Positions 41,672 through 44,340 of a stretch of DNA of 44,341 nt are shown in pieces. The notes below the pieces were generated by a model. It was not told where the DNA came from. It made no database searches and saw only the letters and a list, made by a program, of their open reading frames with translations. The DNA is taken from positions 1 through 44,341 of the forward strand of contig JAIQFZ010000023.1 of assembly GCA_020073015.1 (NCBI GenBank), given 5' to 3'. The position numbers and the translations under genes are program-made. The DNA comes from Terriglobia bacterium. Its GTDB lineage: Bacteria; Acidobacteriota; Terriglobia; Terriglobales; Acidobacteriaceae. Numbering within the stretch: position 1 is the stretch's first letter; every line of letters starts with the position of its first letter.

Positions 41672-43471
41672 TTATGCTGAACCGGCTTCTGCCTTGGCGT
41701 ACATCTCGTCAATCAGCGTGCGGTAGCGCTCTTCAATCCCGCGCCGCCGCACCTTGAACGTATGCGTAAGCGTTCCGTCGGCGGCCGAGAATTCGTCGGG
41801 CACAAGCAGCACTCGCTTGAGTTTCTCAAAGCGGGCAAGGTTGCTGTTCACTTCCCCGATGATGCCTTCATACAGCGCCTGCACCTTGGGGTTCGCGACC
41901 AGTTCCGCTCGTGACCCAAACACCACCTTGTTCGCGCGGGCCCAGTCTTCCAGAACGGGGAAATGCGGCGAGATCAGCACGGCCGGAAACTTGCGCCGGT
42001 CGCCGAGCACCACCGCAACCCCGATCAGCGGATTCAGCTTCAAGGAATTCTCGATCGGTTGCGGCGCGATAAACTTTCCGCCCGAAGTCTTGATCAGGTC
42101 TTTCTTACGATCGGTGATCGAAAGAAATCCGTCGCTGTCCAGATCTCCGATATCTCCGGTCTTGAACCAGCCATCGACAAACGCGGTTTGCGTTTCTTCC
42201 GGACGATTCCAATAGCCCTTGAAAACCGAGGGTCCGCGCACCAGCACTTCGCCGTCCTCGGCAATGCGGACTTCGACGTTTGCGAGTGGCTTGCCCACTG
42301 TGCCAAGCTTGTGAGCCCGGGGATGATTGACCGCGATGACCGGCGACGTTTCGGTCAGCCCATAGCCTTCGTGGATGGCAATGCCAATGTCGGCGTACCA
42401 CTCCGCCAGTTCTTTGCCGAGCGGAGCGCCTCCGGAAATGAACTCCTCCGCCTTGCCACCCATGCCTGCCCGCACCTTTGAAAAAATCAGCCGGTTCGCG
42501 ATTTTCCATGCGAGCGCCCCGGGCTGGACCCGTGCCAGAATCTCGGTCCGGTGCGCGCGCCCTACCGAGAGTGCCCAGCGATAGATTGCATTCTTCGGAA
42601 ATCCCGCAGCCTTTACGATCACCTGCTGCCGGATCTTCTCGTACACGCGCGGCACACCGACAAAGATGTCCGGCCCGACCTCCCCCAGGGCCTGCGGCAA
42701 GTGCGTGAGGTTGGGGCAATACGCCAGTGTCACACCCCGGTACATCAACGCAAAATCCACGTGCCGGGCGGTCACATGAGAAAGCGGAAGGAAGGAAACG
42801 CTGACCTCTTGCTTGTTTCCCAGGCCAAAGCCATCGAGGGAGCAAGCAATATTGGACGCCAGATTGCCGTGCGTCAGCATGGCTCCCTTCGGGGTTCCTG
42901 TGGTTCCGGATGTGTAGATGATCGTGGCCAAGTCGTCAGGCTGGATGGATCGCGCACGGGCATCGAATTCGGGATCGAAATCCGCCGGTCCCTGCAGCAT
43001 CAGCCGTTGCATGTGCACCGCGTGGGCGGTTTCGACTCCATCCATCACCACGATCTGCTCGACCGGCGTTTGGCTCTGAACCGCCAGCACCTTTTCCAGT
43101 TGATTCTGGGTGGACAGAACGATCACGCGCGCTCCGGAGTCGTTCAGGATGAACGCAGTCTGCTCCGCCGTCTGGGTGGAATAAATTGGAACTGTGACCG
43201 CGCCCAGGGAAAGGGCCGCGAAATCGGCAATCGTCCATTCTGGCCGGTTCTCGCTGAGGATGGCGACACGCTCGCCTTTGCGAACTCCCCACAACTCGAA
43301 GGCACGGGCCACACCCACAACGTCGCGGTAGAGTTCGGTAGATGAGATCGGCACCCAGCCCAAAGCCTGCTTTTGCAGCATGACGCGATCGCGGCGGCTC
43401 TGGCAGACCGCCAGCAGAATGTCATTAAGAGTTTGAAGGCTCATCCGATCCTTCGGGGTCCCGCTAGCCAT
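41672..43471 (-). CDS. Long-chain fatty acid-CoA ligase (FadD15/FAA1-like)
   Basis: A 599-residue ANL-superfamily enzyme that forms acyl-AMP then acyl-CoA. Motifs: phosphate loop YTSGTTGTPKGAMLTHGN (about 188), SGGAPLGKEL then EGYGLTETSPVIAVN (about 370), FKTGDIGDLDSDGFLSITDRKKDLIK (about 436-462) and GKFIAPQPIENSLK with the catalytic-lysine region. The long insert and C-terminus match the FadD15/AMP-binding long-chain group rather than short-chain ligases. It is cytoplasmic, possibly membrane-associated, and divergent from the peroxiredoxin gene. Confidence 0.93.
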   Translation of the reverse strand: MASGTPKDRMSLQTLNDILLAVCQSRRDRVMLQKQALGWVPISSTELYRDVVGVARAFELWGVRKGERVAILSENRPEWTIADFAALSLGAVTVPIYSTQTAEQTAFILNDSGARVIVLSTQNQLEKVLAVQSQTPVEQIVVMDGVETAHAVHMQRLMLQGPADFDPEFDARARSIQPDDLATIIYTSGTTGTPKGAMLTHGNLASNIACSLDGFGLGNKQEVSVSFLPLSHVTARHVDFALMYRGVTLAYCPNLTHLPQALGEVGPDIFVGVPRVYEKIRQQVIVKAAGFPKNAIYRWALSVGRAHRTEILARVQPGALAWKIANRLIFSKVRAGMGGKAEEFISGGAPLGKELAEWYADIGIAIHEGYGLTETSPVIAVNHPRAHKLGTVGKPLANVEVRIAEDGEVLVRGPSVFKGYWNRPEETQTAFVDGWFKTGDIGDLDSDGFLSITDRKKDLIKTSGGKFIAPQPIENSLKLNPLIGVAVVLGDRRKFPAVLISPHFPVLEDWARANKVVFGSRAELVANPKVQALYEGIIGEVNSNLARFEKLKRVLLVPDEFSAADGTLTHTFKVRRRGIEERYRTLIDEMYAKAEAGSA

Positions 43472-43567: not shown

Positions 43568-44134
43568 ATGATGCAGAAGATTTTTTTTGCGAGGGCGCTT
43601 GCGGTCGGTTTGCTGGCTGCGGCACTGTGCCCGCAACTGAATGCGCAAGCGAAGACGCCTGAGCCCCCGAAACTGAAGATTGGCGACACGGCTCCCGATT
43701 TCAAACTGAAGTACTTCGACGGCACCGCCCTCAAAGACATTTCGCTCAGCCAGTATCGAGGCCAGAAGAATGTGGTTGTGGCCTTCTACATTTTTGCTTT
43801 TACCGGCGGTTGAACGGCGCAGATGAAGGCCTTCCAGCAGAACCTGCAAAAGCTGGAAGCGGCCGACACCCAGGTCCTGGGTGTGAGCATGGACAGCCCC
43901 TTCGCCAACAAAGCCTTCGCCGACCAGATCGGCGTTACCTTCCCGTTGTTAAGCGATTGGGGCGGCGAGATCACGCGCCAGTACGGCGTCTACGTGGATC
44001 AATACAAAGCCCCACGGCGAATCAACTTCCTGATTGGCAAAGACGGGAAAATTCTCGAGGAGCAACTCGACCGCGATGCCATCGATCCCACGAAGATCGT
44101 GGACGCCTGCGAACGCAAGAAGCTAAGTCGCTGA
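43568..44134 (+). CDS. Exported peroxiredoxin-like protein with selenocysteine at in-frame TGA
   Basis: Read through TGA at 43811-43813, this gives 188 residues of one continuous redoxin domain. A signal peptide spans about 1-28 (LNAQA end). GDTAPDFKLKYFDG opens the domain, and VVVAFYIFAFTGG leads to residue 82, encoded by TGA, then TAQMKAFQQN, VLGVSMDSPFANKAFADQIGVTFPLLSDW and the closing NFLIGKDGKILEEQ. Residue 82 falls exactly at the peroxidatic position of the T-x-x-C motif, and no other Cys is near it; Cys181 at the C-terminus is a possible resolving residue. The upstream 81 codons and downstream 106 codons share one frame. GTG at 43559 and ATG at 43571 are alternative starts. The likely product is a periplasmic selenocysteine peroxide reductase. 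A sequencing error at TGC/TGT is the main alternative. Confidence 0.82.
43828..43864 (+). promoter_or_regulatory. Candidate bacterial SECIS hairpin
   Basis: GGCCTTCCAG (43828-43837) pairs with CTGGAA (43853-43858) and, past a GC bulge, GGCC (43861-43864). An alternative register gives a seven-pair CTTCCAG/CTGGAAG stem. The 15-base loop begins 24 bases after the TGA, within the range described for bacterial SECIS elements. The commonly required G in the first loop positions is not obvious, so this is tentative. Confidence 0.4.

Positions 44135-44263: not shown

Positions 44264-44340
<77 letters not shown>

Follow-up and report, generated by a model that had tools for sequence, protein, structure and literature searches.

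How does a bacterium translate a peroxiredoxin gene whose catalytic codon is UGA, and where in the mRNA would the signal for this lie? The question is raised by a gene in a 44,341-nucleotide stretch of DNA from a Terriglobia bacterium (assembly GCA_020073015.1, contig JAIQFZ010000023.1), the whole of which was analysed and is called the window below. It had been predicted from this stretch that a single in-frame TGA (43811-43813) interrupts an otherwise continuous redoxin frame (43568-44134), and both the position of the TGA and the frame proved correct. The premise that bacterial peroxiredoxin selenoproteins with selenocysteine (Sec) at the peroxidatic site are already known also agreed with the literature, as 12 such peroxiredoxins appear in a table of PMC1794560 and more are listed in PMC1088965 and PMC5029168 (available excerpts of all three). 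Our answer, a prediction from sequence, is that the window gene is a genuine selenoprotein gene and that its recoding element probably belongs to a new, remote class of bacterial SECIS.

Gene and predicted protein

The features of the gene are collected in Table 1. The TGA fell on the T-x-x-C peroxidatic column (T-G-G-TGA), and read-through joined both of its sides into one intact redoxin with a single AhpC-TSA domain (residues 38-162), as the original prediction held. The marks of the peroxiredoxin family were all found, namely a thioredoxin-like AhpC/TSA domain, T-x-x-C/U and the conserved Arg; in an alignment of 35 proteins, T79, column 82 and R151 were invariant and the column of Cys181 was nearly so. 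When the UGA was modelled as Cys, the AlphaFold model of the window protein had a mean pLDDT of 86.9, with low values at residues 1-4 and 6-22, and its best Foldseek matches were AhpE structures (PDB 5id2, 4x0x and 1xxu; 33-34% identity, with TM-scores of about 0.72 for the query and 0.86 for the target). Of the 58 close orthologs, 57 had a Cys in their C-terminal part, and in 42 of them it stood at the exact offset of Cys181 from Sec. AhpE is a one-Cys peroxiredoxin with Cys at the active site and is not known to have an exported N-terminus, whereas the window protein combines Sec with a conserved Cys near its C-terminus.

TABLE 1. Features of the selenoperoxiredoxin gene and its neighbours, in positions of the window.
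Feature	Position	Strand	Basis
Selenoperoxiredoxin gene (predicted), 188 residues, one internal UGA (Sec82), UGA stop at end	43568..44134	+	Frame, Pfam, orthologs
Probable N-terminal signal peptide, about residues 1-27	43568..43648	+	Eye and hydropathy only
AhpC/TSA (peroxiredoxin) domain	43679..44053	+	Pfam PF00578, 121 bits; AlphaFold; Foldseek best match AhpE
Sec82 UGA codon, peroxidatic position (T79-G-G-U82)	43811..43813	+	TGA in 58/58 close orthologs
H1, spacer hairpin UUCCAG/CUGGAA, 15-nt loop	43832..43858	+	Pairing, frozen stem codons, spacer z -1.86
H2, proposed SECIS hairpin ACACCCAG-GUC-CUGGGUGU, loop 60 nt past UGA	43866..43884	+	Pairing, codon freeze, shuffles
Cys181 codon, candidate resolving cysteine	44108..44110	+	C-terminal Cys conserved in orthologs
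Upstream neighbour, divergent AMP-binding enzyme gene	41672..43471	-	
Downstream neighbour, tRNA-Met, outside the selenoprotein system	44264..44340	+	

The N-terminal signal peptide that had been proposed is probable, with a hydrophobic 12-residue stretch before the core in 57 of 58 orthologs by a lenient count, in which the upstream frame of each ortholog was extended back to the previous stop, and the window protein is probably exported. It resembles the T-x-x-U Sec peroxiredoxins (the Eubacterium acidaminophilum enzyme and its kin; PF00578 TxxU entry in the available excerpt of PMC13188914) in the AhpC/TSA domain and the peroxidatic Sec, but differs in its probable signal peptide, in its proposed remote SECIS and in falling below the curated threshold of NCBIfam peroxi_PrxU NF040737 (79 bits against a cut-off of 270). 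Gene context, consisting of the AMP-binding enzyme gene, the tRNA and two further ORFs without a Pfam match, gave no hint of function.

Selenocysteine column and decoding machinery

Orthologs at E<1e-50 were found in 58 of 200 related genomes, the window's own genome counted, and each carried exactly one in-frame TGA. Over 99 homologous places, these being the stretches fetched up to that stage of the analysis, the codon at the column was TGA in 89, TGC in 6, TGT in 3 and CGC in 1; that is, 98 of the 99 held Cys or Sec. The search for sel genes was equally positive, with tRNA-Sec, selA, selB and selD all present in the genome. The tRNA-Sec scored 71 bits and was called tRNA-SeC with anticodon tca by ARAGORN, and a second match above the Rfam tRNA-Sec cut-off (47.3 bits) was a tRNA-Ser. 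SelA was split by a contig end, with profile positions 62-366 on C136 and positions 1-60 separately on C189 (58 bits); SelB scored 374 bits with families SelB-wing_2 and SelB-wing_3, and selD had its own in-frame TGA. Of 14 control genomes, 5 were above the cut-off for tRNA-Sec and 2 each for SelA, SelB and SelD. A SelA match was obtained in 57 of the 58 ortholog genomes, the exception being G095, which is 68% complete, and also in 106 of the other 142 relatives, some of these matches being weak. The SelA frame on C136 (L009:3-1310) continues into an ACPS (4'-phosphopantetheinyl transferase) domain (SelA 378.8 bits, ACPS 54.3 bits) and is possibly a selA-acpS fusion.

The conserved TGA and the Sec machinery support the proposal that the host decodes UGA as Sec. 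The contrary reading, that the product is not a selenoprotein and the codon is a plain stop, marks a pseudogene or has been reassigned to another residue, has nothing in its favour besides the stop codon itself, and we consider it extremely improbable, given a frame and UGA conserved in 58/58 orthologs, Sec machinery in the genome, and a UGA that serves as a stop within the same gene, because the gene's own terminator (44132-44134) is also TGA. Chance, sequencing error or a pseudogene was ruled out for practical purposes by the concordance of all 58 orthologs.

Two hairpins downstream of the UGA

Two hairpins lie in the coding region after the UGA (Table 1): H1, whose stem starts 18 nt past the UGA, and H2, separated from H1 by 7 nt in the window. 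Across the 58 orthologs, H2 took the form ACACCCAG-GUN-CUGGGUGU, with a loop beginning after 60 nt (57 in L059 and L068), and paired cells amounted to 98.0% for H1 and 98.7% for H2 (alignment A1).

Synonymous codon entropy was compared for each codon between 56 orthologs and 2000 draws from the family's own codon usage; L059 and L068, in which the interval from H1 to H2 lacks one codon, were left out of this set and of the 120-sequence pairing set described below. The H2 stem codons +18 (GAC, 55/55), +19 (ACC, 55/56), +20 (CAG, 52/56), +22 (CTG, 48/54) and +23 (GGT, 55/56) lay below all 2000 simulations, as did the H1 stem codons +7, +8, +14 and +15. The H1 loop codons +10 and +11 were not below all draws, and the H2 loop codon +21 was mildly low (39/2000 as low). 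Further codons below all 2000 draws were -21, -18, -17, -10, -3, -1, +1, +9, +17, +24, +25, +28, +31, +33, +47, +55, +64 and +73, among which only +24 lies partly within a stem and +9 lies in the H1 loop. Because many non-stem codons were also low, a single low codon is uninformative, and the information lies in the cluster of stem codons with freer loops. Codon bias alone was rejected as the cause of the stem-codon conservation against the family-usage draws. Codons -3 (ACC) and -1 (GGT), just before the UGA (window 43802-43810), were strongly biased in the orthologs.

Covariation of H1 and H2 was weak in the orthologs alone, where two pairs had a two-sided change, a count equalled or exceeded in 141 of 500 shuffles, and RNAalifold gave a covariation term of only -0.73; the number of changed cells (8) and the covariation score were reached by 0/500 shuffles. 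At the innermost H2 pair, CAG..CUG was replaced by CAA..UUG in four sequences, a two-sided synonymous exchange. In 120 UGA sequences, 13 of which were found by the H2 pattern, 817 of 840 cells were paired once the innermost H2 pair was set aside and the other seven counted, 99 of them with a change on both sides, and neither figure was matched in 1000 shuffles, a result that is not a probability because the shuffles leave relatedness in place. The H2 core CCA..UGG was present in 119 of these sequences and the RGU tip in 120/120, with the innermost pair unpaired in 31 and the pair +56/+68 unpaired in 16.

A second family of UGA peroxiredoxins

The window's own genome holds a second UGA peroxiredoxin (L203, contig C228). 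Its tblastn identity is 30%, and no signal peptide is obvious in it; its H2 matches that of the window gene in the tip and in the 60-nt distance but stands behind a different, longer spacer hairpin. Group 2, the second Sec-peroxiredoxin family, comprised 72 places gathered by protein similarity. Its H2 core CCA..UGG was present in 51/51 UGA members and in 0/21 Cys/Ser members (9 TGC, 4 TGT and 8 Ser). In the tree, the Cys members L228, L229, L230, L241 and the G049 gene (L108/L246) were interspersed among UGA members, so common descent of the Cys genes does not suffice to explain the absence of H2; the Ser rows fell mostly into one cluster and weigh less. Of the Ser-column paralogs (L201, L272, L273, L275-L280), 7 of the 8 in the tree formed this cluster, L201 being outside the tree, and they are perhaps non-peroxidase descendants of a Sec enzyme.

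RNA structure was measured against shuffles of synonymous codons, for which the pooled codon usage of the first homolog set served throughout, for group 2 and the other classes as well; the CGC row was left out of these z-scores, of the hairpin-rule counts and of the tree. The mean z of the H2 region was -2.07 in the 58 orthologs and -2.12 in the 51 group-2 Sec genes, against -0.17 in the 21 group-2 non-Sec genes, +0.35 in 31 more distant UGA genes and +0.30 in 9 distant Cys genes. In the same order, the spacer gave -1.86, -1.89, -0.06, -1.24 and -0.59, and the canonical-distance zone -1.26, -1.27, +0.22, -1.51 and -0.30. This zone is structured in the orthologs and group-2 Sec genes because H1 lies there, so H1 may share in SelB recognition. 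RNAalifold over group 2 recovered H2 only, and the spacer hairpin of that group rests on single-sequence folds and shuffles.

Spacers were structured (mean z -2.66) also in 13 peroxiredoxin genes from families of the same phylum outside the window's class, which were picked by eye and then re-filtered, the automatic peroxiredoxin flag being too loose (20/30 places). Because these loci were found with the H2 pattern, their agreement in H2 is circular; the spacer result is not.

Comparison with elements at canonical distance

In the bSECIS consensus model, 16-37 nt separate the UGA from the apical loop, which is small (3-9 nt) and has a G[G|U] motif (available excerpt of PMC13188914); elements outside this model are also mentioned in PMC12013277 and PMC9312934 (available excerpts). 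Like a canonical bSECIS, H2 is a coding-region hairpin 3' of the UGA with a small apical loop, and its tip (GUC, or GGUCC) agrees with the published loop rule. In contrast, its loop lies 60 nt past the UGA, outside the range of that excerpt, and behind a structured spacer. Standard gene finding with the 16-37 nt rule would overlook 60-nt elements and annotate such genes as truncated.

The closest UGA relatives outside the window's clade are Sec peroxiredoxins with a canonical SECIS (L085, L087, L089, L103 and others, from other families of the class and order), which share T-x-x-U at 35-52% identity. In 16 of 31 rows, by hand count, a GGCGUAUCAGGCUGAUAUCGCC-like hairpin presents its 3-nt loop 23 nt past the UGA, and these relatives as a set, unlike the window's clade, had no structure excess at the place of H2. 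Under a strict contiguous-stem rule, a canonical-distance hairpin was found in only 7 of the 58 orthologs against 21 of the 31 more distant UGA rows, two of which (L109 and L110) fall in group 2 by the tree. A 'far' hairpin rule (45-70 nt) was satisfied by 57/58 orthologs, 6/31 distant UGA rows and 4/9 Cys rows; this rule is unspecific in itself, and H2 is specific only in its constant position and sequence.

The SelD gene of the same genome offered a control, with a possible 7-bp hairpin bearing a GGU loop 20 nt past its UGA. Such a hairpin could be drawn by eye in most of 25 UGA SelD genes, but in several of them the lowest-energy fold was a different one, and because the own genome's SelD is among these the control is suggestive only. 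A PrxQ/BCP-like UGA gene of the own genome (L202, contig C222; ADTPGU) had a hairpin at 17 nt by hand count and is a candidate further selenoprotein. A weak peroxiredoxin match with one TGA inside was also seen at G000:C69:183303-183629.

Proposed mechanism and alternatives

We have proposed a model which, taken as a whole, we regard as likely. An AhpE-like peroxiredoxin, probably exported, would attack peroxide through selenocysteine 82, its peroxidase activity being predicted from the sequence features above, and the resulting selenenic acid would probably be resolved by Cys181 or by an external thiol. SelB with Sec-tRNA would bind H2 through its GGU-type apical loop 60 nt downstream, so that the UGA at 43811 would be read as Sec, and H1 would fold the spacer RNA, shortening the effective path and placing H2 like a canonical SECIS. 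We infer the roles of H2 as SelB site and of H1 as distance shortener from comparisons among homologs. A crude effective spacing, taken as the nucleotides outside spacer helices plus the H2 arm, fell within 16-37 nt in 52/58 orthologs, 43/51 group-2 Sec genes, 8/13 genes of other classes and 7/21 non-Sec genes. Spacer folds were weaker in the non-Sec genes, with a mean of -11.0 kcal/mol against -15.5, -18.5 and -24.4 kcal/mol in orthologs, group-2 Sec genes and other classes, respectively.

Two other assignments of the SECIS have to be weighed against this model. H1 might itself be an atypical SECIS at canonical distance with a large loop, leaving H2 as an accessory pause or stabilising hairpin. 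Its stem does start 18 nt past the UGA, its stem codons and the loop codon +9 are constrained, and the canonical-distance zone is structured in Sec genes and unstructured in group-2 non-Sec genes. We nevertheless hold this to be quite unlikely, as the spacer hairpin varies in place and sequence between subfamilies with no conserved G seen at its tip, its loop in the window, at 15 nt, exceeds the permitted 3-9 nt (PMC13188914, available excerpt), and the fixed part is H2, with its RGU tip in all 120 UGA sequences, 13 of them found via the H2 pattern. The two hairpins might also be read together by SelB or the ribosome as one stacked, composite SECIS, a view consistent with their closeness (a gap of 7 nt in the window, and often a smaller one when other members are folded singly) and with the lack of structure in both regions of Cys/Ser genes. 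Against it, the sequence of H1 is not kept between groups. In the best-studied case, moreover, SelB recognises a single apical hairpin, and we judge the composite unlikely.

Returning to H2 as the element bound by SelB, we lean, with some reserve, toward a wider class of remote SECIS in Acidobacteriota, built of two hairpins: a variable spacer hairpin and a near-invariant CCA-RGUNN-UGG hairpin 60 nt out (57 in two orthologs), having arisen or become fixed in at least two peroxiredoxin lineages, served by the same SelB as the elements at about 20 nt, with decoding set by distance in the folded RNA rather than by the number of nucleotides. In the literature covered, which was largely open-access, we found neither a bacterial SECIS some 60 nt away nor a structured spacer described. 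Should SelB bind H2, elements at about 20 and at 60 nt would both be in use in one cell, and the measuring of distance by SelB to the decoding site, together with the role of the structured spacer, would become directly testable. The results further suggest that peroxide defence relying on selenium, some of it exported, is common among soil acidobacteria.

Distribution and evolution

A scan of named genomes with the window protein gave 58 loci, 57 in Acidobacteriota/Terriglobia MAGs and one in Kosmotogaceae, which has TGT at the column; these named relatives support the earlier inference that the host is an acidobacterium. For another acidobacterium, Occallatibacter riparius, three selenoprotein genes are given as known (available excerpt of PMC12013277). 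In a phylum scan of 396 genomes, the pattern TGA-N55-CCCAGGTNNTGG occurred 67 times in 56 genomes; by a simple rule, 38 places in 32 genomes were peroxiredoxin-like, 9 of them already in our sets, and 29 were others. Because these 29 are near the 24 of the reversed-pattern control (manual count), there was no clear sign of H2 at exactly 60-nt spacing outside peroxiredoxins. A search of the own genome for the H2 hairpin, allowing up to 2 mismatches, gave 10 hits, among them the gene itself scored once per strand, whereas the control gave 3.

The tree covered 166 proteins, without L217, which is the group-2 gene of the own genome, and without L246, a duplicate; its bootstrap values were unsettled. 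In it, the window's clade was one group (support 92/98), remote from group 2. It sits among mostly canonical-element Sec peroxiredoxins, although the forks that place it are weak (83/73 and 87/85). This placement suggests that the window's clade descends from a canonical ancestor and hence that H2 arose in parallel, though gene conversion or an ancient common state may instead account for it. Two genes of family f7, L060 and L069 (genomes G184 and G189), fall in the window's clade next to f1 rows, a position for which lateral transfer of the selenoprotein gene together with its SECIS is possible. In genomes of family f5, two UGA peroxiredoxin genes lie close together on the same strand (L081, L084, L085, L089, L092, L100, L101 and L112).
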